Assembly (NCBI GenBank): GCA_016201205.1
Contig: JACQDF010000358.1
Coordinates: 1-35,724 of the forward strand
Length of the DNA stretch: 35,724 bases
Origin: Acidobacteriota bacterium
GTDB lineage: Bacteria > Acidobacteriota > Terriglobia > Bryobacterales > Bryobacteraceae
Direction: 5' to 3'
Shown: positions 2,719 through 20,258 of the stretch, in pieces
How the letters are laid out: each line of letters starts with the position of its first letter
Numbering within the stretch: position 1 is the stretch's first letter
Made by a program: the position numbers and the translations under genes
The notes under the pieces: generated by a model
Databases searched by the model: none
What the model was told of the DNA's origin: nothing
The model's input: only the letters and a program-made list of their open reading frames with translations

Positions 2719-2834
2719 GTGGCCCTGCCCGGAACCCTCCCCGAGGGCATGCCGCGCACCCCGCGTTTGCCAGAGCGTTCCATGCAAGTGTACGCTGGAG
2801 CTTGTCCGTCGCTCGACGCCAATCCGCAGCGGCA

Positions 2835-4244
2835 ATGCCTGGCTTTGCGAGGCTGGTCCTCGTCCTTCCGATTGTGTATGTTCTCTATTTCCATGGGCTC
2901 TCCAGCATCGGCTTGCTGGGGCCGGACGAGCCTCGTTACGCCTCCATCGGCCGTGAGATGGCTCAAAGCGGAGATTGGATCACCCCGCGGCTGTGGGGGG
3001 AGCCGTGGTTTGAAAAACCGGCGCTGCTGTACTGGATGATCGGAGCGGGCGACAAAGCCGGCTTGGGCGATGACCTTGGCCCAAGGCTGCCGGTGGCGCT
3101 CTGCGGGGTGCTGTTTCTTGCCGCCTATTATCTCCTGCTGCGCGAGCAGTGGGGAGATCAGGTGGCGGCTTTGTCTGCGGGCATCCTCGGCGCCAGCGTG
3201 GGCTGGATCGCCTATTCTCGAATCGCCGTCCCGGACATGCCGATGACCGCTCCCTTCGCTCTGTCGATGCTGCTGTGCTGTGAGTGGCTGCGCACCGGCA
3301 ACCCGCGCCGTCTGTTTTGGGCGGGCGCCTGTTTGGGGCTGGCCGTGCTGTCGAAGGGACTGGTGGCGCCGGTGCTCGCTTTGCCGCTGGTGTGGGCCGG
3401 ACGCAGGCGCATCCTCGATTTGTGGCGGGTGGCGCTTCCAGCCTTCCTGGTGGCCGCTCCATGGTATGTGTTGTGCACGCTGCGCAACGGCACGGAGTTT
3501 CTCAGCGAATTCTTCTGGAAACATCACGCTGCCCGCTTCACCGAGAGCGGCCTTCAACACCCACAGCCGTTCTGGTATTTCCTTCCCGTGCTGCTGGCCG
3601 GGCTGTTTCCCTGGACGCCGCTTCTGAGTTTGCTGCGCAAGCCGGATCAGGATCCCGTCCGGCGCTTTCTGTGGTTGTGGTTCCTGTTCGGTTTCGTGTT
3701 CTTTTCCGCTTCGGTAAACAAGCTGCCGGGCTATCTGCTGCCGCTGATGCCGGCCTTATGTGCGTTGATGGGATTCTCCATCGAGCAAAGCGCTTTCCTG
3801 AAAAGAGAGATTACGCTGGTGGTCGCCATCTGCGCGGCGCTGGTGGGCCTGGTGCCGGTGCTGGGCGAGCTGCTCCCCGGGGCCGTCAGTGAAGGCATCG
3901 GACGCGCCCAGGCTTACGTCGGCTTGTGGAGCGCGCTGCCCGTCATGATCGTGCTCGGCATCGGCGTAGCCATCGTCGAGCTGTGGAAAGGACGCGTCGT
4001 GGCCGTCGAGGTGGTGGCGCTGCTGGTGGCTGCCGGAGTGGCCAGTTTGCAGCTCCGCACCTTTCCCGCGCTCGAACAGCGAGCGTCCGCGCGCTCGGCC
4101 TGGAGAAGCGTCGCCGCGCGATCGACCGAAGTTTGTCTGGACGCTCCCCACCGCGCCTTTCGCTATGGGATGAATTACTACGCCCGGACGCCGCTTCCTG
4201 ATTGCGACCAACAGCCGAGGCCCCTCCGGCTGAAAAATCAGTAA
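2835..4244 (+). CDS. ArnT/PMT-like membrane glycosyltransferase (GT83 type)
   Basis: A polytopic inner-membrane protein of about 469 residues. The first periplasmic loop has the catalytic GPDEPRYASIGREM signature and the following WITPRLWGEPWFEKPALLYW block, both typical of ArnT and related dolichyl/undecaprenyl-phosphate-mannosyltransferase-like enzymes. These transfer a sugar from a polyprenyl-phosphate donor to lipid A, protein or another lipid on the periplasmic face. About ten hydrophobic segments follow, then a short periplasmic tail with FRYGMNYYARTPLPDC. ATG 2835 is preferred over a TTG at 2802. Its TAA (4242-4244) overlaps the stop of a truncated fabH copy on the other strand, as the lost original junction with fabH must have done. 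Acceptor unknown. Confidence 0.85.
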   Translation: MPGFARLVLVLPIVYVLYFHGLSSIGLLGPDEPRYASIGREMAQSGDWITPRLWGEPWFEKPALLYWMIGAGDKAGLGDDLGPRLPVALCGVLFLAAYYLLLREQWGDQVAALSAGILGASVGWIAYSRIAVPDMPMTAPFALSMLLCCEWLRTGNPRRLFWAGACLGLAVLSKGLVAPVLALPLVWAGRRRILDLWRVALPAFLVAAPWYVLCTLRNGTEFLSEFFWKHHAARFTESGLQHPQPFWYFLPVLLAGLFPWTPLLSLLRKPDQDPVRRFLWLWFLFGFVFFSASVNKLPGYLLPLMPALCALMGFSIEQSAFLKREITLVVAICAALVGLVPVLGELLPGAVSEGIGRAQAYVGLWSALPVMIVLGIGVAIVELWKGRVVAVEVVALLVAAGVASLQLRTFPALEQRASARSAWRSVAARSTEVCLDAPHRAFRYGMNYYARTPLPDCDQQPRPLRLKNQ

Positions 4245-4340
4245 GCCCACCGCCAAAGATTCGCACCGACGGTGAATCCCGCGTCTTCCCCCTCAGCCGC
4301 GGGCTCGATGAGGACCGCGCCCGCGCCATCTCCAAAAAGG
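4006..4340 (+). repeat. Mosaic repeat, copy 1 (arnT 3' end plus fabH 3' remnant)
   Basis: Three blocks recur downstream in the same orientation: 4006-4080 at 5650-5724 (two mismatches), 4188-4282 at 5725-5819 (one mismatch), and 4273-4340 at 6233-6300 (two mismatches). Copy 1 keeps the complete arnT end; the fabH side is internally deleted at a shared tgaatcccgc. Confidence 0.9.
4238..4340 (-). pseudogene. fabH 3' remnant with internal deletion
   Basis: Read on the minus strand in the fabH frame this gives LFGDGAGAVLIEPAAEGEDA, then GF joined directly to TVGANLWRWAY and a stop. In the intact fabH (5775-6767) the same two segments are separated by roughly 420 bases, each beginning with an AGF codon set (GCGGGATTCA). 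The deletion therefore looks like a recombination between short direct repeats. Upstream of 4340 the similarity to fabH stops. It is a leftover of a duplicated arnT-fabH junction and cannot encode a ketoacyl synthase. Confidence 0.85.
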
Positions 4341-4361
4341 AATGTCCGGTGCCCCCCGTGT

Positions 4362-5600
4362 CTATTTTCGTCTCAGCCACCCGCCCGGATTGAAAGTCAT
4401 GATAAACGCCTCCCGCGTCAAATCCTGCTCGAAATTCATGCCTTCGTGCTCGGCCAGAAATTTCTGCACCGCGGCGAGCGGACCGGGACCTGCGGCCGGT
4501 TGCGTGGGAATGCCATCAATGTGCGTGTCCTCCACGATTAGATAGGAATGAGGCGGAACCATCGGCGAATAAGCGTGCAGCTCATTCAGAACGTGTTGCA
4601 TGGAGTGATCCGAATCCAGCGTCACCACGACGCTGTGACCCCGGACCATCTTCGCGATCTCGGAAACAATCTTCGGATCGGTCGAGCTTCCGTGAAAGAA
4701 CGTGACGTACTTCTTCCACAGCGGATGCGTTGCCGCCGTCTTGGTTAAGTCCTGGATGTCCACGGTAATTACACGCGACTTCTCCAGTCCCATGCCCTTC
4801 AGTGTGTGCGCCCAGTACAGCGCTGAACCTCCGCGCCACGTTCCCGTCTCGATCACGAAGTCCGGCTGAAGCTGGTACAGAATCTCCTGCATCATCCAGA
4901 GATCCAGCGGATTCTTCTCGATCTCCGCGTTGTGAAACCACATGTGCCGCCAGACCGGGATGTCATGGAACAGCTTCATCAGTTCATGCTGCTTTTCCGG
5001 GGACATTTGCCGGTTGCGCTCCGCTAGCAGCTTTTGATAGCCAGCCCGTGCCATTCGCACCTGCATGGCCCGATCTACGATGTCTTCCTCGCGCGGCTTG
5101 AGGCTCACCCCAACCACGATCAGGCCGAGAGGACGACCGTCCGGGAAGTGGGCTGCCTGGTCGAGCGAGAACTCGATCTCCACCGGCTTTCGCAGCAGAG
5201 CTTTGTCTGGGATCGCGCGCCTGAAGGTAAATCGCCCCTCTTTCGAGTACTCGCCCTTGCCCACTTCGACACCGTTCACCTTGGCGCTCAACGTAACCGT
5301 CTTGACTTCGCTCAACAATTCGCTCGTCACCGTGAAGTCCAATATCAGGAACGTCTGCTGCTGCCATTCCGGCGCGTCCAGCGAAACGGCGAAATCCTTT
5401 CCAGTCCATTTCCATGCGGGTGTGCCTTCGTAGAAGCCCCGTCGCAGCCGCGGCTGAAGGTCGGGATCGGTGACCCCGATCTCCGTGACCGGCAGGTTCC
5501 GGTCTTGCGATGCGGCGCCCGGTTTGGCGGCCTCTTTGCGATGGCATGCGGTGAAGGCGGCCAGGACACAAAGGAAGAAACCCGTTACGCGTGTGAACAT
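4362..5600 (-). CDS. CmcI/cephalosporin-hydroxylase-family protein with exported N-terminal domain
   Basis: About 412 residues from the ATG at 5600 (a TTG at 5633 is an in-frame alternative). The C-terminal half has a Rossmann methyltransferase-like core of the CmcI family: VIETGTWRGGSALYWAH (SAM-type glycine motif), VITVDIQD, VVVTLDSDHSMQHVLNEL and SYLIVEDTHIDG, whose acidic residues bind metal in CmcI. Residues about 45-165 form an unrelated beta-rich domain. The N-terminus is hydrophobic and ends AAFTAC, a possible lipobox, so the protein may be exported. That is odd for a SAM-dependent enzyme. The gene sits alone between broken copies of arnT and fabH ends, consistent with insertion during a local duplication. 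The family name does not imply antibiotic synthesis; the substrate is unknown. Confidence 0.75.
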   Translation of the reverse strand: MFTRVTGFFLCVLAAFTACHRKEAAKPGAASQDRNLPVTEIGVTDPDLQPRLRRGFYEGTPAWKWTGKDFAVSLDAPEWQQQTFLILDFTVTSELLSEVKTVTLSAKVNGVEVGKGEYSKEGRFTFRRAIPDKALLRKPVEIEFSLDQAAHFPDGRPLGLIVVGVSLKPREEDIVDRAMQVRMARAGYQKLLAERNRQMSPEKQHELMKLFHDIPVWRHMWFHNAEIEKNPLDLWMMQEILYQLQPDFVIETGTWRGGSALYWAHTLKGMGLEKSRVITVDIQDLTKTAATHPLWKKYVTFFHGSSTDPKIVSEIAKMVRGHSVVVTLDSDHSMQHVLNELHAYSPMVPPHSYLIVEDTHIDGIPTQPAAGPGPLAAVQKFLAEHEGMNFEQDLTREAFIMTFNPGGWLRRK

Positions 5601-5649
5601 ATGTTCCCAAAGGGAGCGGTCGAAATCAGACAAGATTCTACCAGCCTAC

Positions 5650-5781
5650 TCGAGGTGGTGCCGGTGCTGGTGGCTGCCGGAGTGGCCAGTTTGCAGCTCC
5701 GCACCTTTCCCGCGCTCGAACAGCACGCCGCTTCCTGATTGCGACCAACAGCCGAGGCCCCTCCGGCTGAAAAATCAGTAA
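5650..5781 (+). pseudogene. arnT 3' remnant with a 107-base deletion
   Basis: The plus strand repeats the end of the ArnT-like gene: VLVAAGVASLQLRTFPALEQ, then, after loss of the 107 bases corresponding to 4081-4187, PLPDCDQQPRPLRLKNQ in another frame. The stop (5779-5781) overlaps the stop of intact fabH exactly as the 4244 stop overlaps the fabH remnant. Not a functional gene. Confidence 0.85.
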
Positions 5782-5819
5782 GCCCACCGCCAAAGATTCG
5801 CACCGACAGTGAATCCCGC
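5650..5819 (+). repeat. Mosaic repeat, copy 2 (arnT remnant plus start of fabH 3' end)
   Basis: Direct-orientation partner of 4006-4282, with the 107-base internal deletion. It continues into the intact fabH 3' end, where the third block (6233-6300) lies. Confidence 0.9.
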
Positions 5820-6767
5820 CCCGACCGCCGCGAACAATACCAGATCGCCTTTCTTGAGCTTGCCTTGGGTGATGGCATCCTGCGTGGCCAGCGGGATGGT
5901 GGCCGCCGTCGTGTTCCCGAAGCGGTCAATATTGATCAGCACGCGGTCGCACGGCAGGCCGAGACGCTCCGCTGCCGCCGTGATGATGCGACGGTTGGCC
6001 TGGTGCGGAATCAGCACGGCGACGTCTTGCACCTTCGTGCCCGTGCGCTCCAGCAGTTCGCGGCAGGCTTCGTGCATCTTGCGGACGGCGTACTTGAACA
6101 CCTGATGGCCGTCCTGGTGAACGTAGTGCAGCGCCTGGTCCACTGTATCGTGGGTCGCCGGCAGGCGGCTGCCTCCGGCCGGCATCTTCAGATAATCGCC
6201 GCCGGAGCCGTCAATCTCGTTCAGGAAACCGATGAATCCCGCGTCTTCCCCCTCAGCCGCGGGCTCGATGAGGACTGCGCCCGCGCCATCTCCAAACAGG
6301 ACGCAGGTTCCGCGATCTTTGTAATTGATGATGCGCGACATGGTGTCCGCGCCAATGATGAGCACCCGTTTGTGCGATCCGGAGGCCACCAGGTGCGCTC
6401 CCGTGGTGAGCCCGTAGACGAAGCCGGAGCATGCCGCCACCAAGTCGAATCCCCAGGCCCCCTTGGCCCCAAGCCGATCCTGCACCAGACAGGCAGTCGA
6501 CGGAAAGAACATGTCCGGAGTCACTGTGCAGACAATGATCGCGTCGATGGACGCCGGCTCGATTCCGCGCTGCGCCAGCGCTTCGCGAGCCGCTTCCACC
6601 GCCATGTCCGAGGTGGCGATTCCTTCGGGGGCGATATGGCGCTCGCGGATGCCTGTCCGCTCGATGATCCACTCATCCGATGTGTCCACCATTTGTTCGA
6701 GGTCGTGGTTGGTCAGCACGCCGGCCGGGACATGGCAGCCGAGTGCGGTGATCTTGGCTCTGGGCAA
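5775..6767 (-). CDS. fabH: 3-oxoacyl-ACP synthase III (KAS III)
   Basis: Condenses acetyl-CoA (or branched acyl-CoA) with malonyl-ACP to start fatty-acid synthesis. The catalytic triad is visible: Cys113 in VAACSGFVYGL, His255 in IPHQANRR and Asn285 in RFGNTTAAT (numbered from the TTG start); the TSDEWIIERTGIRERH block is also diagnostic. I prefer the TTG at 6767, which has AGGAGG seven bases upstream and gives 330 residues, over the ATG at 6797. No acpP, fabD or fabG neighbours are in view, so this is a stand-alone copy. Its 3' end lies in the duplicated region, and a truncated copy of that end is at 4238-4340. Confidence 0.95.
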   Translation of the reverse strand: MPRAKITALGCHVPAGVLTNHDLEQMVDTSDEWIIERTGIRERHIAPEGIATSDMAVEAAREALAQRGIEPASIDAIIVCTVTPDMFFPSTACLVQDRLGAKGAWGFDLVAACSGFVYGLTTGAHLVASGSHKRVLIIGADTMSRIINYKDRGTCVLFGDGAGAVLIEPAAEGEDAGFIGFLNEIDGSGGDYLKMPAGGSRLPATHDTVDQALHYVHQDGHQVFKYAVRKMHEACRELLERTGTKVQDVAVLIPHQANRRIITAAAERLGLPCDRVLINIDRFGNTTAATIPLATQDAITQGKLKKGDLVLFAAVGAGFTVGANLWRWAY

Positions 6768-6866
6768 GAAGGAGCCTCCTCGGATGGTTTGCTGCAATCC
6801 TCTATGGTAACGGATTAGGCTAGGATTTTATGGGCTTCTTGTCAGGCCGAGGACGGTGGTGGTGAA

Positions 6867-7658: not shown

Positions 7659-7859
7659 ATGAGCACAATTGAAGAGATCGAGGATGCTCTGCGCCGGCTT
7701 TCCTCCGGGGATCTCGCTGAATTTCGAACGTGGTTCGCCGAGTTTGACGGTGCCCGGTGGGACCGCCAGATTGAGGAAGATGTGGCCGCGGGTCGTCTCG
7801 ATGCGCTGGCAGATGAAGCCCTGAGCGACTTACGCGAGGGCCGCTGCACGGATCGGTGA
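7659..7859 (+). CDS. Antitoxin-like protein of a RelE/ParE-type module
   Basis: 66 residues, acidic and helical: STIEEIEDALRRLSSGDLAE, then WFAEFDGARWDRQIEEDVAAG and a short tail ending CTDR. This is the layout of a widespread small antitoxin family (EIE..IxxLp...WDxQIExDxxxGkLDaL) found directly upstream of RelE/ParE-like toxins. Its TGA overlaps the GTG of the next frame by two bases, typical of toxin-antitoxin pairs. A TACAAT box overlaps the start codon. The partner is truncated (see 7856-7951), so the antitoxin appears orphaned. Confidence 0.7.
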   Translation: MSTIEEIEDALRRLSSGDLAEFRTWFAEFDGARWDRQIEEDVAAGRLDALADEALSDLREGRCTDR

Positions 7860-10387: not shown

Positions 10388-11114
10388 CCTGGCCGATCAC
10401 CTCAATCTCTTCCGGATACTGGTAGAAGAGGGAATTGGCCATCGAGGCAGGGTGCGGCTGCAACACAAGCTGCGGCTCATTCAAATGCGCCCAGCCGCAG
10501 GCGTACCCGGTACGATGCTCGAAGAAGTAAATCGGCCGCTCGAACTCGGTGTTCCATCCCGTATTCACGATCTTGCGTTTGGTTTCATCGATCAGAATCA
10601 GCGACCCTGGCTGCAAGATCGGGTACATGAACCAGTCCTCGCTACCGATAAACGCGTAGCGGTGGTCCCTCAGGTCCAGCCCCTCCAGCAGCATCAAGGG
10701 GAGCTTGCCCCATCGCTGGATCATACGGCTCAGGTAGGTGGTTTTCCGCAGGTCGATTCCAGGATCCAGCGCCAGCGGCACTTGCACCGACCCATAGCCG
10801 TTGCTGGTGAAGCCGATCGGGTGGGTTCGCTCGATCTCGATCTGCGCGGCGTCTGCCGGCAGCTTTGACATGTCGACGCTATACCAGCTCATCACCTCAT
10901 ACGGATCCAGGCGGTAGATGGCACACAACGAATAGAGACGGTACAGGGTCGGAACGGTCCCTTTGTTCTCGATGTCGGCCAGGCGGCTCAGCCCAAGAAT
11001 GAATTCGCCGTTGTCGTGCCGCTCGGCGATGTGCACGCTGGCCTCCTCCACATCGCGGTAGCGGAGGTTCAGCCGCTCCCGAACCCGTTTCAGTTTCTGT
11101 CCTGCTTCCTCCAT
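10323..11114 (-). CDS. XRE-family regulator with S24/LexA-like C-terminal domain
   Basis: 263 residues. An N-terminal helix-turn-helix (about 5-75: KRVRERLNLRYRDVEEAS, then GLSRLADIENKGTVPTLYRL) has the XRE pattern with a recognition helix around SRLADIENKG. The C-terminal part (about 150-245: SEDWFMYPILQPGSLILIDE) is the beta-rich S24/LexA-like fold seen in CI- and LexA-type repressors. I do not see the full Ser/Lys autocleavage dyad with certainty. A perfect 16-bp palindrome lies in the divergent promoter region shared with ubiX, a reasonable operator candidate. It overlaps the convergent hypothetical gene by 65 bases. Confidence 0.8.
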   Translation of the reverse strand: MEEAGQKLKRVRERLNLRYRDVEEASVHIAERHDNGEFILGLSRLADIENKGTVPTLYRLYSLCAIYRLDPYEVMSWYSVDMSKLPADAAQIEIERTHPIGFTSNGYGSVQVPLALDPGIDLRKTTYLSRMIQRWGKLPLMLLEGLDLRDHRYAFIGSEDWFMYPILQPGSLILIDETKRKIVNTGWNTEFERPIYFFEHRTGYACGWAHLNEPQLVLQPHPASMANSLFYQYPEEIEVIGQVTGVAMRLEQARRRRARSAAG

Positions 11115-11225
11115 GGTATGATCGAAAGCCGTCCTTCGCCGGCGGCTGGTTCAAGGGTAAGTACAGTTTCCGTAAGGGATTATAGCGATCGTCCGGCGCC
11201 GAGGCAAGGGTTTTCGGACATCTTT

Positions 11226-11241
11226 GTTCTGAATTCAGAAC
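11226..11241. promoter_or_regulatory. Perfect palindrome GTTCTGAATTCAGAAC, candidate operator
   Basis: A 16-bp perfect inverted repeat, 25 bases before the ubiX start and 112 bases before the divergent XRE/S24-like gene. A looser 18-base version (GTTTTCGAAATTCAGAAC) is at 9806-9823 in front of the neighbouring hypothetical gene. Placement suggests a site for the adjacent regulator. Confidence 0.45.
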
Positions 11242-11265
11242 GAAATTCATGCCGGGAGGTCAGTT

Positions 11266-11838
11266 TTGATTATCATCGTCGGCATCTCGGGAGCCAGCGG
11301 CGCCATCTATGGCATCCGCCTGCTCGAGAAGCTTCGCGCTCGCCGGGACGTCGAAACCCACCTCATTCTCACTCGTTCTGCCGAGCGTACCGTCTGGCTC
11401 GAAACCGGCATGAAGCCCGCGGAAATCAAGAAGCTGGCCGACTTTCATTACCCCATCGAAGATATTGGCTGCCGGCTTGCCAGCGGTTCTTTTCTCACCG
11501 ACGCCATGGTCATCGCTCCGTGCTCCATTCACAGCATGTCCTCGATCGCGTATGGGATCAGCTCGAATCTGCTGATCCGGGCTGCCGATGTCACATTGAA
11601 AGAGAAACGGAGACTCATCCTGATGGTAAGGGAAACTCCACTTCACGCCGGCCACCTGCGCACCATGACCATTCTTGCCCGGATCGGAGCCATCATTGCC
11701 CCTCCCATGCCTGCTTTCTATACCAAGCCGCAAACCGTGATGGATTTCGTGGACGCCAGCGTGGATCGGGTCCTCGATTTACTCGGCTTGCCGGCGTCCG
11801 ATGCCAAACGGTGGCTCCCCGGAGGGTCCAAAGAATGA
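11266..11838 (+). CDS. ubiX: Flavin prenyltransferase UbiX
   Basis: 190 residues from a TTG with GGGAGGT in front. It joins dimethylallyl phosphate to FMN to make the prenylated flavin cofactor used by UbiD-type decarboxylases. Diagnostic blocks: the flavin-binding GISGASGAIYG at the N-terminus, APCSIHSMSSIAYGISSNLL in the middle, and RLILMVRETPLHAGHLRTM near the C-terminus. Length is standard. It overlaps pheA by 4 bases (ATGA), so the two are translationally coupled. No ubiD is present in the window, so the client decarboxylase must be elsewhere. Confidence 0.95.
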   Translation: MIIIVGISGASGAIYGIRLLEKLRARRDVETHLILTRSAERTVWLETGMKPAEIKKLADFHYPIEDIGCRLASGSFLTDAMVIAPCSIHSMSSIAYGISSNLLIRAADVTLKEKRRLILMVRETPLHAGHLRTMTILARIGAIIAPPMPAFYTKPQTVMDFVDASVDRVLDLLGLPASDAKRWLPGGSKE

Positions 11839-12674
11839 AAAAGAAAGTGGCCTTTCAAGGAGAGCCCGGCGCCTTCAGCCAGATCGCCGTGCGGCGGCTC
11901 GCCGGCAATCGCGCTCAAGCCGTTCCCTGCGAGCGCTTCGAGCAGGTGTTCCGCAGTCTCGATGAAAAGCAAGTCGATGCCGCCGTCATCCCGATCGAGA
12001 ACACATTACACGGCTCGGTACACGAAAACTACGATCATCTACTGCGTTTCGATCTCCGGATTCGCGGCGAGACCAGCGTCCGCATTGTTCACAATCTCAT
12101 TGCCGCGCAAGGCGTTCGCCTGCGCCAACTGCGGCGCGTGTTCTCGCATCCGGTGGCGCTGAATCAGTGCCTCGATTTCTTTGCTTCCAACCGGCATTTA
12201 GAAAAAATTCCTTTCTACGACACCGCCGGCAGCGTCAAGATGATCGTCTCCGAGAATCTCAAGGATGCCGGCGCCATCGCCTCTTCCATGGCCGCCGAGA
12301 TCTACGGAGCACGGATCCTGAAGAGATCCATCGAAGACGACCGGGAGAACTATACCCGCTTCTTTCTCCTGCAGCGTCCCGGCAGCAGATCGCTGGTCCC
12401 GCCGGGCGGCGAAATGAAGACTTCGCTTGTGTTCACAACTCGGAACACACCCGGCGCTTTGTTCCGGGCGCTCAGCGTCTTCGCTCTCCGCGACCTGAAC
12501 CTGGCCAAGATCGAATCGCGGCCCCTTCGCGGCAAGCCCTGGGAGTACCTGTTTTACGTGGATCTGCTCGCCGATTCGGCCGATCCCAGAACCCGGAAAG
12601 CCCTGGGACATCTCCAGGAACTCGCCGATTTCCTCAAGGTGCTGGGCTGCTATCCACGGGGAACAGCCTCTTGA
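11835..12674 (+). CDS. pheA: Prephenate dehydratase
   Basis: 279 residues, cytoplasmic; converts prephenate to phenylpyruvate in phenylalanine synthesis. The catalytic domain (1-185) holds VAFQGEPGAFSQIA, PIENTLHGSV and the active-site ENYTRFFLL (Thr174-Arg-Phe). A C-terminal ACT domain (about 196-270) holds TRNTPGALFRALSVFA and the ESRP motif that binds phenylalanine for feedback inhibition. There is no chorismate mutase domain, so it is the monofunctional type. GGAGGG lies 9 bases before the ATG, which overlaps the ubiX stop. Confidence 0.95.
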   Translation: MKKKVAFQGEPGAFSQIAVRRLAGNRAQAVPCERFEQVFRSLDEKQVDAAVIPIENTLHGSVHENYDHLLRFDLRIRGETSVRIVHNLIAAQGVRLRQLRRVFSHPVALNQCLDFFASNRHLEKIPFYDTAGSVKMIVSENLKDAGAIASSMAAEIYGARILKRSIEDDRENYTRFFLLQRPGSRSLVPPGGEMKTSLVFTTRNTPGALFRALSVFALRDLNLAKIESRPLRGKPWEYLFYVDLLADSADPRTRKALGHLQELADFLKVLGCYPRGTAS

Positions 12675-12682
12675 GGTAGCCC

Positions 12683-14358
12683 ATGGGTCTGCGGCCGGCT
12701 TTCGCTGTGTTGGTATTGCTCGCGGTTTTCCCCCGCGCCGCGGCGCAGCAAGCCGCCGATATCCCCGAGTGGGCGCAACAGGGAAAGTTCCGCTTCACAC
12801 GCCTCGACGGCGGCCCCATCGAGATTCTGAAGACAGCCCGCTCCGCCTGGGGCATGCACTTCTCCGCCCAGGAAAAGGAAGTACTCGGCAATCTCTACAC
12901 AAAATACGCCGATCGCATGATCGACCTGCTCGAGCAGGCGCACATCAACTACGTCTGGCTGACGTGGAGCGTCGGGTACTCCTGGCAGGATGAGGCCGGA
13001 CAGCGCGAGCAGGTGCGGCAGTTCATCGACAAGCTCCGCCGGCGGGGCATCCGCTCGGCAGCCTACGTCTGCGCCGTCAGCATGTTCTGGGAGAGCATGT
13101 TCCGCGACGAGCCGCGCTCGGTCCGCTGGATCACCTTCGATCCCGGCGGCGTGCCCTACCGCTACTCCGGCGGCCGGGACCCGCTGCGCTTCATCGCTGA
13201 TGTCTCCAATGCCGAATGGGTCGAACTCCAGAAGCGCCGTGTGGGCGCGGCCATCGACGCTGGATTCGAGTCACTGTTCTTCGACAACACCGCCGCTGTC
13301 GCCTGGAACACCGACGAGCAGATGGACGCGTTCATCGGCAAGATCCGGCGCTACATCCACGAAGAGCGGCGCTCCAACCTGCTGCTGTTCACCAACTATG
13401 GCCTGACGCCGCACCGCGCGGCGCTCAACCGCAACATGGATTGGGTGTTCGCGGAAGGCTGGCGCGAACCAGGGGTATGGGACAACGAGTGGAACGTGGG
13501 CAATATCCGCCGCACGAAGTACCTGCGCGGCCTGATCCCGGAATGGAAACCGCTCACCACCGAATACTCGATATTCCACTCCGGCAACCGCGCCACTACG
13601 TTCCTCGGGCCGCGTTCTCAGAAACTCGCGACGGCCGAGGCTGCCGCCTTTCACTCCGATTACTCCTGGGACATGGAAGGACCCTTCGATGCTGCGCTCA
13701 TGGCCGGCACGCCGGCGGCGATGGAGTCCTGGAAGGCGATCGGCCAGTACAGCCGGTTTCTGCGGGAGCATGAAGACATCTACTGGAAGGCGCGGCCGGT
13801 GTCTCCCATCGCCGTGGTGGGGCCGAGCGCCCACAACTCCTTCACCTGGGAGCGTGAAGAGTCGGGCATCTACGACCTGCTCGTGCGAAACAGCGTTCTG
13901 TTCGACATCCGCCCCGCCGGCCAGGTGGCTGGGTACGCGGCGGTGGTGACGCCCGCCCCGGGGACCCCGCCGGGTGAAATCCTCGCCCGCGTACGCGCCC
14001 TGGCTCCTGATGCGTTGTGGCTCACCGTCGAAGGCGCGCCCCACGTCGTCGGAAACGTCACCCGGCTGGGCTCCGGAAAAGGACTCGCCATCCATCTGCT
14101 CAACTACGATCCGCAGCCGGTTCGCGGTCTGAAGGTCCGATTGCGCCTGGACCACGAGTTCTCAGCGCTGGCCAATGCGACGCCGCGGCTGCTGTCGCCC
14201 GACGTTGTTTCCCCGCGGTCCCCGTCCGCGTCCGACGGACAGGACCGTCCGACGGACAGGACCGTCCGACGGACAGGACCGTCCGCCGGACAGGACCGGA
14301 ACTGGAGTTTTCCATCGACCAACTGGACGTCTACTCCGTCCTCATTCTGGAAAGGTAG
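12683..14358 (+). CDS. Secreted glycoside-hydrolase-like protein, frame broken near the 3' end by a 17-bp repeat
   Basis: The ATG at 12683 follows a GAGG and opens a signal peptide (MGLRPAFAVLVLLAVFPRAA AQ). The next 450 residues resemble TIM-barrel putative glycoside hydrolases (HINYVWLTWSVGYSW, then DAGFESLFFDNTAAVAW), with a beta-galactosidase-like C-terminal region. Near residue 515 the frame enters four copies of a 17-bp repeat. Because 68 is not a multiple of 3, it leaves the natural end, FSIDQLDVYSVLILER with TAG at 14356-14358, in another frame. As sequenced, the open frame runs on to 14944, antisense to the GH130 gene, and that extension is surely not native. With 0, 3 or 6 repeats the natural end would be in frame. 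Specific activity unknown; the gene follows pheA by 8 bases. Confidence 0.65.
14230..14297 (+). repeat. Four tandem copies of a 17-bp unit GTCCGACGGACAGGACC
   Basis: Units start at 14230, 14247, 14264 and 14281; the first three are identical and the fourth has one change (A to C). Each unit contains the near-palindrome GTCCGACGGAC. It sits inside the 3' end of the preceding gene. Confidence 0.95.
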
Positions 14359-14360
14359 GC

Positions 14361-14441
14361 CCATAGGAAGAACCTCGGGTGCGGAGACCCGCGGGCAGAT
14401 CCTCGGCGCCCAGGCGATTGGGAGTATACTCGCTGCTGGTC
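14361..14441 (+). repeat. Dispersed repeat, copy 1 (carries TATACT)
   Basis: The 30 bases at 14412-14441, with core GCGATTGGGAGTATACT, match 26077-26106 at 28 of 30 positions. The weaker motif CCATAGGAAGAACC at 14361 matches CCAAAGGAAAAACC at 26029 with similar spacing. It begins directly after the natural stop of the preceding gene. Function unknown; TATACT resembles a -10 box. Confidence 0.6.
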
Positions 14442-14500
14442 ACGCGGCCGCCGTTGGCGCAGTCGGGTGCGAGATGACCAGCGCCCTGAGACTGTCATCC

Positions 14501-15436
14501 TCAAACCGCCGACCTGCTGTGTTGAAGGCAGAGAGCCACCAGATCGGCTACAGTGGCCTCGCCCGCACACATTACTGTGTCCGCTCCGCCCCAATAAATC
14601 TTCACGGTTCCATCGGACTCGGGCACCGCGCCGCAGGTAAAGACCACGTTGTGGACATACCCGGTTATTTCCCAGGGGTCTTCCGGCTGCAGAATCCAGG
14701 AGTCGCTCACCCCTACGACTTTCGCCGGGTTGTGGAGATCATGCAGCGCAACTCCCAGACGATAGATCGATCCATCCATCGTTCGGAATACACCGTGGTA
14801 GATGGAAAGCCACCCCTGCTCCGTTTTTATCGGCGGGGCTCCGGGGCCAATCTTCATTTCATCCCAGTGATATGGTTCCGGCTTCATGACGAGCTGGGAC
14901 TCGCCCCAAAAGCGCAGGTCTGGAGAATAGGAAATCCAGATTGACCAGGGAGCAATTTCCGAATGGGGCCGGTCAAGCCGGGCATAGAGTCCCTCAAACT
15001 TCTCGGGAAAGATCACGGCATTCCGAGAGTCGGCCTGTGTGATAAGGGAGACTCGTTCTATCTGAACAAAGTCCTTCGTCCTGGCGAGAGCGATCCGCAC
15101 ACCATTTCGCGAGTAGGCGCTATAGGTGATGAGATACTCGCCTTCCACGCGCGTCACGCGTGGGTCTTCGACGCTGAATTCCTCGTAGGCTGCGAAAGGG
15201 CTGTCCCGTTCAGGCCGCAGAAAGGGCTCAGGATCGGCGATGAACCGGAATCCATCGACACTGCGTGCCAAACCGATGATCGACCGCCCCGTGCGCAAGT
15301 GGGATCGGAAGAGCATGATGTATTCGTTCCCATGCTTCACCACGGCCGCGTTGTGAACGGTTTCCACTGGGTAAGGGATCTCAGCCTTGGTAAGAATGGG
15401 GTTGTGCCGGTATCGCCGGATAATGTCGCGCTTCAT
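14501..15436 (-). CDS. GH130-family beta-mannoside phosphorylase/hydrolase
   Basis: 311 residues, cytoplasmic, a five-bladed propeller of the GH130 type. The FSVEDPRVTRV block carries the conserved Asp used as general acid in GH130. Blades such as WSIWISYSPDLRFWGES, IKTEQGWLSIYHGV and VVFTCGAVPESDGTVKIYWG are family-typical. Most GH130 members phosphorolyse beta-mannosyl links to give mannose-1-phosphate; some are hydrolases. Its start overlaps the GT4 gene stop by 4 bases, making it the last gene of a five-gene operon that encodes both glycosyltransferases and phosphorylases. The exact linkage is not readable from sequence. Confidence 0.85.
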   Translation of the reverse strand: MKRDIIRRYRHNPILTKAEIPYPVETVHNAAVVKHGNEYIMLFRSHLRTGRSIIGLARSVDGFRFIADPEPFLRPERDSPFAAYEEFSVEDPRVTRVEGEYLITYSAYSRNGVRIALARTKDFVQIERVSLITQADSRNAVIFPEKFEGLYARLDRPHSEIAPWSIWISYSPDLRFWGESQLVMKPEPYHWDEMKIGPGAPPIKTEQGWLSIYHGVFRTMDGSIYRLGVALHDLHNPAKVVGVSDSWILQPEDPWEITGYVHNVVFTCGAVPESDGTVKIYWGGADTVMCAGEATVADLVALCLQHSRSAV

Positions 15437-16473
15437 GATCTCCTCTGCGCTTCGAGGGCAAAAATTGTCTCGTAGACCCGCTCGTATCCCGCTACCATCG
15501 ACTCCACGGAAAAATATTGCTGGACGTGTTCACGGCAGGTAGTACGGTCGATTTCGGGAAGCCGATGCAGGGCCTGCACCGCTTCGTTCACTGTGGTGAC
15601 CAGGAATCCAGTCAGCCCGTCCTTGATTACTTCACCGCAGGAGCCGAGGTTCATCGCGATCACCGGCACGCCGGCGGCATTAGCCTCTGCCAGAACAAGT
15701 CCGAATCGTTCGGGGACGGTGTTCAAGTGCAGCAGTGCTCGCGCGCGGGCGAACAATTCGTTCTTACCCTGCACGTCTACTGGCCCGACGTAACGAATCT
15801 CACGATCGTCAAGGTAGGGTTCGACCTGCTTCCGAAAGTACTCCTTGTCTTGGATGATTCCCGCGATGAGCAGGGGTAGGCCACTCAGGCGCGCCACCGC
15901 GATCGCCAGATGGACACCCTTGTCTGGGTGAATCCGGCCGAGGAAGATCAAGTCATCACCGCGCGAATGTTGAAGCGGGTACAACGAGAGATCGATTCCG
16001 TTATACACGGTTGCGAGATAGTTGAGCCCCGGCACGCGATCGCAGTCGCTGACGGAAACGAAGTATCCGTCGCGATACTTCTGGTACACCGGCATGATTT
16101 TCGGAGAGGAGAACCCGTGGATCGTGGTCAGCACCGGGGTGCTTACCAGCCGCGTGTAAGTTAATGCCATGAAGTCGTAGTGGCTGTGGATCAGGTCAAA
16201 CTCGGCAGCGCGTTCGAACACTTCGGAGATGTGACGGTACTCGGCCACTTTAGGATCGACTGTGGAATCCTCTTCGTATCCCTTGTCAACGACAGCGTAT
16301 AGGCGCGCGCGAGTCACGGAGTCCGCGGTGGCGAACAGCGTCACATCCCAGCCGCGGGCGACAAGTCCTTCAGTGATGTTGCTTGCGACCGTCTCCCAGG
16401 CGCCGTAGTGACGCGGAGGCGTTCGCCAGGCGACCGGCGACAGGATAGCAACTCTTTTCTTGGGAATCGCCAT
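15433..16473 (-). CDS. GT4-family glycosyltransferase
   Basis: 346 residues, GT-B fold, using a nucleotide-sugar donor. The N-terminal domain has HYGAWETVASNITEGLVARG (acceptor-side Gly-rich loop) and FDLIHSHYDF. The donor-side domain has LIFLGRIHPDKGVHLAI and the retaining-enzyme E-x7-E block in ERFGLVLAEANAAGVPVIA. No membrane segment, so cytoplasmic or membrane-attached. It lies between two GH130 genes (5-base gap upstream, 4-base overlap downstream), which suggests it makes the glycan the phosphorylases degrade. Donor (possibly GDP-mannose) is inferred from context only. Confidence 0.85.
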   Translation of the reverse strand: MAIPKKRVAILSPVAWRTPPRHYGAWETVASNITEGLVARGWDVTLFATADSVTRARLYAVVDKGYEEDSTVDPKVAEYRHISEVFERAAEFDLIHSHYDFMALTYTRLVSTPVLTTIHGFSSPKIMPVYQKYRDGYFVSVSDCDRVPGLNYLATVYNGIDLSLYPLQHSRGDDLIFLGRIHPDKGVHLAIAVARLSGLPLLIAGIIQDKEYFRKQVEPYLDDREIRYVGPVDVQGKNELFARARALLHLNTVPERFGLVLAEANAAGVPVIAMNLGSCGEVIKDGLTGFLVTTVNEAVQALHRLPEIDRTTCREHVQQYFSVESMVAGYERVYETIFALEAQRRS

Positions 16474-16478
16474 GGTCT

Positions 16479-17960
16479 TCAGCCGTCTTCGGAATGCATG
16501 GCCGCCAGGACATCATCGACGGGGACCGTAGCGAAACCCGTGGCGTGATCGGCCAGACCGTAGGGAATGACCAGCTCCCCTTTGTGGAGCAGAGCGCCGC
16601 AAGTATAGACCACGTTCGGCACGTAGCCTTCCCGTTCGTTCTGATCCGGTTGGAGTAAGGGGGCGCGGAGGCGGCCGGTGACCTTGCTGGGATCATCGCG
16701 ATCCAACAGAAACGCGCCGATGCAGTATCTTCGCAAGGGGCCGACACCGTGGCTGAGCACCAGCCAGCCGGCGTCTGTCTCGATGGGAGATCCGCAGTTT
16801 CCAAGCTGGACCAACTCCCACGGGAAACTGGGCTTGAGGAGAATTTCGCGCTCATTCCAGAAGTGGACGTTGTCGGAGAACATAAGGTAAATGCTCTCGT
16901 TGTCCTGGCGCGAGAGCATGGCATAGAGACCGTTGATTTTGCGGGGAAAGATCGCCATGCCTTTGTTTTGGGCTGCAGGGCCGTTTAAGGTGATAAAGCG
17001 AAAGCGAAGAAAATCAGCCGTCTCCACAAGTTCCGGCATTACCACCTTGCCATCGAAGGCTGTGAATGTCGCGTAGTAGATGTGGCTGCCGTCGTCGTTC
17101 TGGAAACGGACGAACCGCGCGTCCTCGATGCCGTTGCGTTGCGAGGGCGTGGCCGGAAAAATGATGCGCTCAGAAAGCTGCTGCTCGGGCTGGAACTGGA
17201 CCTCGTAGTTCGCTCGGGCCACCATCCAAATCCCCTGAGCGGTGTTCTGATCTTCGTGCAGAATCCCCTCCGCCTGTCGCTCCTTGTCCACCTCCGCGTC
17301 GATGCTGCCCCGAAGCTCTTGCAATGAGAACGAATTGTCGAGCCTATTCATGACCCGCCGGGTGAATTCGCCGATCAACCCCAGTTCGAAAAGTTTCCGC
17401 GCAAACAACCCCTTCTCATACTCCGGGTTTGGGATTTGACGAGGCTCGGTGAGGAAACCTGCAGGGTCCAGTACTTCGATCCGATGATCAGGATGAATGA
17501 TACCGGTTCGAAAGGTGATGGAAGAAATGTGACCTTCCCCAGTGGCGCGCAGGCTGAGAATGAACCGCAGGGCGCCAGGCGGCAAGCCGGTTTGGTCGGT
17601 GTGCGGAACGATGGACGGATTGAAGAGGGCAGCAGATTCCAAGGAATACTCGGCCAGGAAATAGGCGCCGATCAAGAGTCGTCTTTGGTCGGAAACTTCC
17701 GCGTCCGTGAACAGCATCTCGCGGACTTGCTCAAACCGTTCCAGAAAACGCTTGTGGATCTGCTGGTGTCGCTGAGAGAACTCAGCGGAGATTTCATCCA
17801 GGAGGGGGCCGACCATTTCCTCCGGAAGTGACAGGATGCGGGCGATGATCCCGCCAACCCGTTGTGAATCTCCCGGATTGAATGGCCGTAAGAGGACGCG
17901 CGACTGATCCGGCTTGAGGACTGTGCTGGTGCGCCTGACGTGAATTGAGTTCGCGTTCAT
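16479..17960 (-). CDS. Long GH130-like protein with helical N-terminal extension
   Basis: 493 residues. About 1-190 is mostly helical (EEMVGPLLDEISAEFSQRHQ, RFLERFEQVREM). Residues about 200-490 form the GH130 propeller, with GIEDARFVRFQNDDGSHIYY in the place of the ED-P-R motif, IFPRKINGLYAMLSRQD, and VPNVVYTCGALLHKGELVIP. The motif reads ED-A-R rather than ED-P-R. The extended form matches a known GH130 subgroup that often sits with GT4 genes. Likely a cytoplasmic mannosyl phosphorylase. Gap to the next gene is 5 bases and to the upstream gene 9 bases. Confidence 0.85.
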   Translation of the reverse strand: MNANSIHVRRTSTVLKPDQSRVLLRPFNPGDSQRVGGIIARILSLPEEMVGPLLDEISAEFSQRHQQIHKRFLERFEQVREMLFTDAEVSDQRRLLIGAYFLAEYSLESAALFNPSIVPHTDQTGLPPGALRFILSLRATGEGHISSITFRTGIIHPDHRIEVLDPAGFLTEPRQIPNPEYEKGLFARKLFELGLIGEFTRRVMNRLDNSFSLQELRGSIDAEVDKERQAEGILHEDQNTAQGIWMVARANYEVQFQPEQQLSERIIFPATPSQRNGIEDARFVRFQNDDGSHIYYATFTAFDGKVVMPELVETADFLRFRFITLNGPAAQNKGMAIFPRKINGLYAMLSRQDNESIYLMFSDNVHFWNEREILLKPSFPWELVQLGNCGSPIETDAGWLVLSHGVGPLRRYCIGAFLLDRDDPSKVTGRLRAPLLQPDQNEREGYVPNVVYTCGALLHKGELVIPYGLADHATGFATVPVDDVLAAMHSEDG

Positions 17961-17969
17961 GGAGGGGAC

Positions 17970-20258
17970 TTACGCTCCGATGGCGATCGGCTCCTTAAAA
18001 CTCGTCACCATGTTTTGGGCCAGGCGCATCTCCGCTAACGAAAGCAGGAAGGCCAGTGTGGACTCCGCTCCCTGATTCGCATTGACCCGATCCACGTGCA
18101 ATCCATCGCCGCAGCCGCCGCTCTCGGGAGAGTAGAGTTCCAGACCAAGATCGTTCCAGCCAATGAACCAGTCAAAGGCTCGTTGAGCCTGCTCGTACCA
18201 CCAGACGTCCGAAGTGGCGCGATAGGCTTCCAGACAGGCGGAGACAGTTGCTTGCGCCTCAATGGGTTGCTGGTCAAAATTCGCGCGCAGGCCGTCGCGA
18301 CGGTAGAAACCATTGCTGCCAATCGGCCGAAAGTGATCTTTTTCAGAGACTTGCAACTCGGTCAGCCAGCGCAATGCCTGCACGCCCCGCTCAAAGACTG
18401 CCGGCTGTCCGGTCGCGTGTCCGCTCAAAATCAAGGCGTGTGCGAGCTTTGCGTTGTCGTACGATAGCTCCTCTTCAAACCAGCACCAGTCCAGCTTGGC
18501 GCTCCGCCGGAAAAGTTCCATTAGTCTGGATGTGAGCATCTCGCGGGTCTGATTGACAAGGCTGTCACCGCTTAGTCGGCGCAGGTATTCGTGGATGCCG
18601 ATCAGTCCGAATGCCCAAGCACGCGGCGACGTGAACTCCGTGAACGCCGGCAACGCGAGTGCAAAGAGTTGGCCCGCCATCATCTGGAAACCTCGGGATG
18701 GCGAACGTCCCACGCCTATGCCGAGGGCCCACAGCGCTCGCCCTTGGCAGTCCTCCGATCCGTGGTCATCGAGCCAGCGCCGGTCGAAACTCATGTGATT
18801 ATGAAAGCGCTTCGTGTTGGCGTCGAACGCGTGATGAAGAAAGGCGGCGCACGTGGTGGCTATGGTTCGCACCCGTTCCGACTCCTCTCCCAGTTCGCCG
18901 AGCAGGACCGCCAGAATAAAGGCACGCGCATTGTCGTCGGTACAATAACCCTCGGAAAAATTCGGCACGCTGAAAATCGCGTGTTGGAATACGCCGGTCG
19001 AATCGGTCATCCGCGAGAGGTGATTTAGCTTCAGCTCGGGTAGTTCCCGAGGCCTCTGGTCGAGTGTCTTCGTGACCAGAGATTTTCGCGAGAGCGCAGC
19101 CCCCTCCAGCCGCGATAGCTCAAACGAACGCATATAGAGCTGCGCGACGTTGCTCCAAATCATCTCGCGCCCAATCCTGTACGCATTCTTACGAATCGCA
19201 TGACGCCTTGTATCGTCCTTCAGCAAGCCGGTCACTTCCCGGGCGATCGCCTCCGAATCGCCGAATGGCACTAGCACTCCACGGTCCTCAGCCAAGAGTT
19301 CTGCTGCGTGCCAGTAAGGCGTCGAGACTACGGCTTTGCCAGCGCCAAAAGTATAGGCGAGCGTCCCCGACGTGATCTGCGCTTCGTTGAGATAAGGCGT
19401 TATATAAAGGTCAGCAGCGCCAATGAACTCTTTTAGATTTTCCAGATCGACGAACCGGTTGTAAAAGATGACGTTTTTCTCTACTTTGTTCTTCTTGGCA
19501 AGGATCTCGAGGCTCAGCCGGTAGGCTTCCCCATGTTCGCGCAGTTCGTTTGGATGCGTCGCACCCAGGACAATGTAAACAACATCAGGGAATTCAGCCA
19601 GAATACCTGGCAGCGCGTTGAGCACGCACTCGATTCCCTTGTTAGGCGAAAGCAGGCCGAACGTGAGCAGCACTACTTTCCCTTCGACGCCAAACTGATC
19701 TTTGAAGTACGTCGGATCGACGAATCCCACGTCTGGAATCCCATGCGCGATCAGATCGATCTTGGCCGGTGGCGCCTCATAAATGTCCTGGAGCATCTGC
19801 CGTCCGCGCTCAGTCATGACAACCACACGGGTCGAGAGCGAGATCAACTCCCGCATGACGCGGCGTTGGTCAGCCCTAGGTTCACGCAGAACGGTATGGA
19901 GCGTCGTGACAACGGGCATCCTTAATTCGCGCAGGAATGCCAGAATGTGACCGCCGGCAGGTCCACCGAAAATGCCGAACTCGTGCTGCAGGCAGACGAT
20001 GTCTACGTTGCTGATGTTGAGGAAATCCGCGGCGCGCAGGTATGACGACAAGTCCTGCTCTTCAATCTCGAAGCGCACAACCTCCGGGTATTCATAGCCG
20101 CCTTTGACGTCGTTGACCGAAACTGAAAAACACTGGCTCTGGGGATGCGCATTCGCGACGGCAGCAAGTAAGTCGGACGTGAACGTGGCGATCCCGCATT
20201 TGCGTGGCAAGTGGTCGCCGACGAACGCGATCTTGCGTATTCTAGAGGTTTCTTTCAT
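17970..20258 (-). CDS. GT4 glycosyltransferase fused to an alpha/alpha-barrel domain
   Basis: 762 residues with two domains. Residues about 1-395 are a GT-B GT4 transferase: GDHLPRKCGIATFTSDLLAA, VCLQHEFGIFGG, LLTFGLLSPNKGIECVLNAL, and TSGTLAYTFGAGKAVVSTPY near the donor site. Residues about 420-745 are a repeat of helical hairpins (GYCTDDNARAFILAVLLGEL, WFEEELSYDNAKLAHALILS, FDQQPIEAQATVSACLEAYR) resembling an (alpha/alpha)6 glycosidase or epimerase barrel. The pairing suggests synthesis and trimming in one polypeptide. The start lies 39 bases after the XRE gene stop, so the regulator and this gene are likely in one transcript. Product unknown; mannosyl transfer is inferred from the GH130 neighbours. 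Confidence 0.85.
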   Translation of the reverse strand: MKETSRIRKIAFVGDHLPRKCGIATFTSDLLAAVANAHPQSQCFSVSVNDVKGGYEYPEVVRFEIEEQDLSSYLRAADFLNISNVDIVCLQHEFGIFGGPAGGHILAFLRELRMPVVTTLHTVLREPRADQRRVMRELISLSTRVVVMTERGRQMLQDIYEAPPAKIDLIAHGIPDVGFVDPTYFKDQFGVEGKVVLLTFGLLSPNKGIECVLNALPGILAEFPDVVYIVLGATHPNELREHGEAYRLSLEILAKKNKVEKNVIFYNRFVDLENLKEFIGAADLYITPYLNEAQITSGTLAYTFGAGKAVVSTPYWHAAELLAEDRGVLVPFGDSEAIAREVTGLLKDDTRRHAIRKNAYRIGREMIWSNVAQLYMRSFELSRLEGAALSRKSLVTKTLDQRPRELPELKLNHLSRMTDSTGVFQHAIFSVPNFSEGYCTDDNARAFILAVLLGELGEESERVRTIATTCAAFLHHAFDANTKRFHNHMSFDRRWLDDHGSEDCQGRALWALGIGVGRSPSRGFQMMAGQLFALALPAFTEFTSPRAWAFGLIGIHEYLRRLSGDSLVNQTREMLTSRLMELFRRSAKLDWCWFEEELSYDNAKLAHALILSGHATGQPAVFERGVQALRWLTELQVSEKDHFRPIGSNGFYRRDGLRANFDQQPIEAQATVSACLEAYRATSDVWWYEQAQRAFDWFIGWNDLGLELYSPESGGCGDGLHVDRVNANQGAESTLAFLLSLAEMRLAQNMVTSFKEPIAIGA

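Follow-up and report, generated by a model that had tools for sequence, protein, structure and literature searches.

How a single gene comes to lie between two copies of one and the same gene junction is the question raised by a contig of an Acidobacteriota bacterium of the family Bryobacteraceae (JACQDF010000358.1, assembly GCA_016201205.1, here contig 137), the whole 35,724 bases of which we refer to as the window. The junction is that of an arnT-like gene and fabH, and the gene between the copies encodes a protein with a CmcI-like domain. An earlier note on this sequence explained the arrangement by tandem duplication of the convergent pair, decay of the spare parts and capture of the CmcI-like gene between them. 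We favour a single event, in which a foreign one-gene fragment was joined into the junction and left 759 bases of target sequence on either side (probability about 0.7). Direct-repeat scars of the same kind recur in the genome, and most of them bracket genes of toxin-antitoxin families.

The intact arnT-like gene (2802-4244, forward strand) was identified by profile matches, aligns over nearly its full length to relatives and has no internal stop. It belongs to the PMT family of glycosyltransferases and scores 162.3 bits against a cut-off of 567 for the ArnT equivalog (PRK13279), which corrects the name arnT given to it earlier. The second target gene, intact fabH (beta-ketoacyl-ACP synthase III by profile matches), lies at 5775-6797 on the reverse strand. 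A direct repeat search bore out the observation that the 3′ ends of both genes occur twice in the same orientation, and found three pairs: 4006-4080 with 5650-5724 (D2, 73/75 identical, forward strand, left copy within the intact arnT-like gene), 4188-4282 with 5725-5819 (D1, 94/95, spanning the 3′ ends of both genes) and 4270-4341 with 6230-6301 (D3, 69/72, reverse strand, right copy within intact fabH). These repeats are pieces of the two target genes, each present in two copies in the sampled sequence, and their length and identity are beyond chance. The duplicated unit measures 759 bases, namely the last 239 of the arnT-like gene and the last 527 of fabH with an overlap of 7. In its first copy the intact arnT-like gene meets a fabH remnant (4238-4341, reverse strand) which, by repeat comparison, lacks 410 bases equivalent to 5820-6229, deleted at the shared 10-base direct repeat TGAATCCCGC (4273-4282; reverse complement GCGGGATTCA) just as the note had described. 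The second copy consists, again as described, of an arnT remnant (5650-5781, forward strand) without the 107 bases equivalent to 4081-4187, followed by intact fabH, and the stops overlap identically at 4238-4244 and 5775-5781.

Between the copies lies an insert of 1,308 bases (4342-5649), with a guanine-plus-cytosine (GC) content of 0.583 against 0.628 in the 3 kb of flank on each side. Its edges fall exactly at the ends of the duplicated unit, position 4341 corresponding to 6301 on the fabH side and 5650 to 4006 on the arnT side. Followed along the ancestral junction, the path runs from the intact arnT-like gene into fabH, skips 410 bases at the 10-base word, continues for 72 bases and enters the insert; beyond it the path resumes in arnT 239 bases before the end of the gene, skips 107 bases and passes through intact fabH. 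Because the insert occupies precisely the joint that the duplication created, duplication and insertion are most simply one event, and the separate later capture proposed in the note is the part of its history that we would give up. Its tandem duplication stands insofar as the junction was duplicated and the redundant copies decayed, but only the 3′ parts, and not the whole pair, were copied. The 410-base loss took place at a microhomology of 10 bases, and no microhomology was seen at the 107-base loss.

The two copies can be aligned over 229 bases and show five real differences (4017, 4020, 4271, 4316 and 4337 against their partners); a sixth listed mismatch, at 4272, arises from the overlap of two repeats across the deletion joint. 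Since the differences are so few, the insertion is recent compared with the divergence from congeners, whose best-matching arnT-like proteins reach 53-58% identity, in keeping with the recent origin suggested before. The clean excision that had been foreseen through the 95-base repeat was reproduced in silico: a crossover between 4188-4282 and 5725-5819 deletes 1,537 bases and gives back both proteins without a single change. A crossover in the 75-base pair disrupts arnT, and one in the 72-base pair fabH, and for this reason only one of the three loss routes is harmless.

The insert is nearly filled by its sole gene (4362-5600, reverse strand), which encodes 412 amino acids from an ATG at 5600, the longest open reading frame starting at a TTG at 5633. 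The C-terminal domain of the product matches Pfam RMNT_CmcI (PF04989; 174.1 bits, cut-off 23.2), like members of the CmcI and rhamnosyl O-methyltransferase family (PDB 2BM8); the match to the rhamnosyl O-methyltransferase equivalog NF045824 stays below threshold (144.4 bits, cut-off 400) and that to CmcI structures is weak (E 0.006). Unlike that family, the protein has an extra N-terminal part with a leader that by eye resembles that of a lipoprotein. The cofactors of the CmcI family are cytoplasmic, and a leader on such a protein is odd. Relatives carry a leader as well, similar in congener G005 and hydrophobic in a metagenome-assembled genome (MAG) of the Bryobacterales, and the N-terminal part (roughly residues 20-180) finds its matches mainly in small, separate proteins of the genus (L033, L034, L058-L065 and others). 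Third codon positions have a GC content of 0.61, against 0.77 and 0.79 in the target genes and 0.68-0.80 in seven other neighbours, and the insert is thus compositionally foreign. A full-length relative of the protein was found in one of 11 other congeners (G005, 61%), where 11.5 kb sampled around the gene held no match to arnT or fabH, and a relative (56%) in the Bryobacterales MAG.

The source genome is a 7.0-Mb draft of 392 contigs, 94.3% complete and with an estimated contamination of 2%. We sampled 70 stretches of it, mostly up to 20 kb from the start of contigs 1-68, together with the window: 913,495 bases, including 18,654 N that all come from eight short all-N contigs, which leaves 894,841 non-N bases. 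Repeat pairs, direct and inverted, were counted at an identity of at least 88%, a length of at least 40 bases and a gap of 150-4,000 bases, thresholds that were relaxed from an initial 90% and 50 bases after the data had been seen. Contig L163 was set aside ahead of the locus count; it measures 3,390 bases, its ends are identical over 140 bases (1-140 = 3251-3390), and it may be a small circular element or a circularised contig. Under this rule the sample holds 21 direct pairs at 14 loci and no inverted pair. Without the window and L105-L107, which had been sampled for other reasons, 12 loci remain in 804,325 bases picked by contig number alone. The true number may be higher than 14, because the exact repeats of younger insertions would be longer and contigs would break at them. 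The relatives gave two loci in 1,214,125 bases, namely none in G028 (400,000 bases of a single contig, with three inverted pairs), one in G019 (399,602 bases, two contigs), one in fragments from the genus (288,982 bases) and none in fragments from the family (125,541 bases), and the difference of 14 against 2 loci has a p of about 0.0003 in a binomial test. As for these two, the locus L037 holds one protein without a Pfam match and L199 was judged by eye only. With the gap limit removed (88%, 50 bases) the source sample yields four inverted pairs, 9.5-11.4 kb apart, and at 78% identity within the gap limit it yields one. A dispersed repeat family was considered and rejected for the sampled genome: 19 of 20 repeat units match only their own two copies, and the remaining one has a third, weaker match of 43 bases nearby.

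Single repeats at these loci measure 42-224 bases, and the duplicated span reaches about 1.1 kb at L149 if the part absent from one copy is counted. Precise placement of the insert at the new joint is seen also at the simply bracketed loci L105, L111, L128, L131, L159 (twice), L170 and L172. Less simple are L129 and L173, where the right copy is split by 1,024 and 43 bases respectively. At L146 the right copy is shorter by 80 bases. The left copy is without sequence kept in the right copy at the window, L108 and L149, with joint words of 10, about 8 and about 6 bases, the last two imperfect; L129 shows an 8-base word at the joint, but there the right side may have gained sequence instead. The intact right copy at L149 is, by eye, the start of an apparent uvrA. 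A coding-like frame of at least 100 residues runs over at least one repeat copy at L105, L108, L128, L129, L131, L146, L149, L159 and L170, and none of that kind crosses the repeats at L111, L172 and L173. GC content of the insert is below that of its flanks in 12 of the 14 cases, and the shortest insert has 481 bases.

Ten of the 14 inserts contain a match to a toxin or antitoxin family, one of them below the cut-off. HicA and HicB occur together at L129 (contig 22), PemK at L131 (contig 24) and L173 (contig 67), BrnA at L172 (contig 66), Phd with ParE and PemK at L111 (contig 4; the ParE match has an in-frame stop), PIN with a MazE-like antitoxin at L149 (contig 42) and PIN alone in the second insert of L159 (contig 52). 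Weak cases are Fic at L108 (contig 1), a family also known outside toxin-antitoxin pairs, and Zeta at L146 (contig 39; 26.3 against 22.3 bits); the match below the cut-off is a PIN at L170 (contig 64; 22.1 against 23.6 bits), in a frame that looks truncated. Among the others, no toxin family was found at L105 (16220-17086), whose proteins were not scanned; the three proteins scanned at L128 (14239-16555) gave only a C-terminal fragment of an FAD oxidase and no toxin family, and two small proteins scanned in the first insert of L159 matched no family. The window insert is likewise a non-toxin member of the set.

Across the whole genome 88 matches were found to four toxin families that had been selected after the inserts were seen (PIN 40, PemK 10, ParE 15, HicA 23), against 9 PIN and 3 HicA in G019 and 9 and 1 in G028. 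Nineteen of the 88 fall in the sampled sequence, and 7 of these, in six inserts, are bracketed by repeats, against an expectation of 0.43; none of 20,000 random placements reached 7. The PemK of L173 lies outside the genome-wide list and is not among the 7, and several of the 12 unbracketed hits have short flanks because they stand close to the end of a contig. Around the 19 hits there are either strong repeats or none, apart from one match next to a HicA gene (75% over 77 bases, 50.9 bits); a score of 50 bits is attained at 9 of 400 random positions, so this match may be due to chance.

As to how the window arose, the foreign piece would most likely have been picked up while a broken or stalled replication fork was being repaired, when the left arm of one sister, broken in fabH, could have been joined through the fragment to the right arm of the other, broken in arnT. 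Ku-type end-joining or template switching could have made the joints; the genome encodes a Ku gene, and PMC7719229 contains the statement that conventional end-joining is enriched in Acidobacteria and lists among its references a work (Dupuy, 2019) on the acquisition of heterologous DNA, to judge by its title. With one arnT and one fabH left intact the event was tolerated, and the redundant copies have lost 410 and 107 bases, a loss that shortened the repeats and should lower the rate of exact excision. The same process appears to act at the other loci, where toxin-antitoxin families dominate the inserts. Cells that lose an addictive module through recombination between its repeats would be killed or arrested, so that addictive inserts would survive and others be lost; by this argument, carried over from restriction-modification genes, the toxin-antitoxin excess would best be read as a survival filter. 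More tentatively, and at somewhat less than even odds, we suggest that naked toxin-antitoxin modules and occasional passengers such as the CmcI-like gene invade the chromosome by themselves in this lineage, by insertion with long target duplication, whereby the target duplication would spare host genes, addiction would filter the inserts, and microhomology deletions in the spare copy would lock them in place.

Tandem duplications are common in bacteria, and a plain duplication of the junction, followed by capture of a gene between the copies and then by decay, would start from an ordinary event and agrees with the loss of sequence from the remnants by deletion; yet both in the window and at the simply bracketed loci the insert falls on the very point where the copies meet, which independent later insertions would not be expected to hit repeatedly, and we hold this two-step course to be unlikely. 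Integration by a single homologous crossover of a circular molecule, carrying the CmcI-like gene beside a related arnT-fabH segment, would give the same flanking direct repeats with cargo between them, and could even explain the few differences between the copies. It would, however, call for a donor circle with a matching host segment at each of the 14 targets, for inserts as short as the smallest found here, and the CmcI-like protein has no close match on plasmids: a tblastn search of 72,556 plasmid records returned 59, none with a query coverage of 80% or more and all below 60% identity, the five best listed reaching 60% coverage at 32% identity. We regard such an integration as very unlikely. 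A usual transposon or integron-like element would account for single-gene inserts at many sites, and the insert of L172 does contain, by eye, an apparent serine-recombinase fragment, but neither a transposase nor an integrase is present in the window insert, and the 14 inserts have no terminal inverted repeats (the longest word common to both ends is 5-8 bases, against shuffle means of 5.3-6.2) and no end motif shared by more than 2 of the 28 insert ends. The duplications are also variable, from about 42 to 1,100 bases, rather than short and fixed, all of which makes this explanation extremely improbable.

The remaining doubt concerns the assembly, which could have joined variants of co-existing strains. 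The draft state and estimated contamination of the genome, an anatomy known from the assembly, and an excess of high-identity repeats that is specific to the source genome, as an artefact would be, all speak for such a fault. A false join, on the other hand, needs a shared word at each joint between insert and repeat, and the end overlap of L163 suggests assembly words of about 141 bases; exact matches in the 21 pairs extend to 108 bases at most, short of that 140-base overlap. There is no run of N within any bracketed locus, the two copies of a locus diverge by about 1-12% across the 14 loci, and an artefact would not be expected to favour toxin genes. We therefore judge it unlikely.

Several observations nevertheless weigh against the single-event history and its extension to the genome. 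At 78% identity the direct-repeat loci number 17.9 per Mb here, against 15.0 in G028, 10.0 in G019, 10.4 in the genus fragments and 0 in the family fragments; the excess over the relatives thus largely vanishes and is confined to high-identity, recent repeats, and we take the other repeats at 78% to be older or paralogous. The fragments of the relatives were centred on arnT, fabH and CmcI-like genes, and the toxin hits of G019 and G028 all lie outside the sampled stretches. In the window itself the two deletions may postdate the insertion and have nothing to do with it, the joints do not distinguish end-joining from template switching without a donor and an empty site, and the gene is not an addiction module, so that addiction does not explain its retention. 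The nearest counterpart of the junction, in congener G008, has an arnT-like protein only 53% identical and is too divergent to serve as the empty allele. It is the one among 11 congeners in which arnT adjoins fabH, separated by about 120 bases that hold no CmcI-like gene, so that the adjacency in relatives for which the earlier note had called was seen there, but not in the 8 of 11 whose orthologs lie on different contigs. G005 has no fabH match, and G010 has neither ortholog and only weaker paralogs of both. The order arnT-CmcI-fabH without repeats, which would speak for a different history, was looked for in the sampled loci of the relatives and was not seen.

Insertion with long target duplication was described by Nobusato, Uchiyama, Ohashi and Kobayashi (2000, Gene 259:99; as cited in PMC1643837, PMC3874152 and PMC3031569) and is known, from these citing accounts, through comparison of close strains for restriction-modification genes of Helicobacter. 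According to a passage in PMC3874152 (Mruk and Kobayashi), the target duplications left by the insertion of some restriction-modification systems are long and variable, on the order of 100 bp, and toxin-antitoxin genes are not included in that statement; PMC2654758 cites the same work of 2000 for a parallel with restriction-modification systems, and a passage in PMC4978471 mentions a direct repeat flanking one restriction-modification cluster of Helicobacter. Our loci resemble that kind of insertion, as these passages present it, in the gene unit, the long variable target duplications and the lack of linkage to a known mobile element. They differ in that they come most likely from another phylum, hold mostly toxin-antitoxin families, span up to about 1.1 kb and show internal deletions in one copy, and in that no strain pair stands behind the window case. 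A toxin-antitoxin pair adjoining MaOC1 in Microcystis aeruginosa PCC 7806, reported in PMC7935541 to lie between two 152-bp direct repeats, is similarly a small module between long direct repeats, but those repeats are identical, have an inverted repeat inside and are not presented as target duplications in that passage, whereas the window repeats differ. The words 'toxin' and 'direct repeat' are absent from the main text of the Solibacter genome paper (PMC3174227), and among the matches listed from the open-licence literature, by titles and the starts of abstracts, we found no description of toxin-antitoxin insertion with target duplication, which is weak evidence of absence.

The window thus holds a genuine, well-preserved case of a type of insertion already known, which by itself is a modest curiosity; it is of value for having led to a set of scars in the sampled genome that mostly surround toxin-antitoxin families. 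To our knowledge, the movement of chromosomal toxin-antitoxin modules without a transposon, phage or integron is an open question, and self-invasion of the kind suggested above would, if true, provide an element-free route for their spread. Readable target duplications at 7 of 19 sampled toxin hits are testable scars, which record the target, the limits of the insert and stages from intact to eroded, and the set offers a test of whether addiction protects an insert from deletion through its own flanking repeats.

Two minor observations may be added. In the window, a small frame at 7659-7859 resembles, by eye, an antitoxin-like protein and adjoins a YgjP-like gene. In the single-contig relative G028, long direct and inverted repeats cluster at 10600-19900 of stretch L194 and are possibly insertion sequences.

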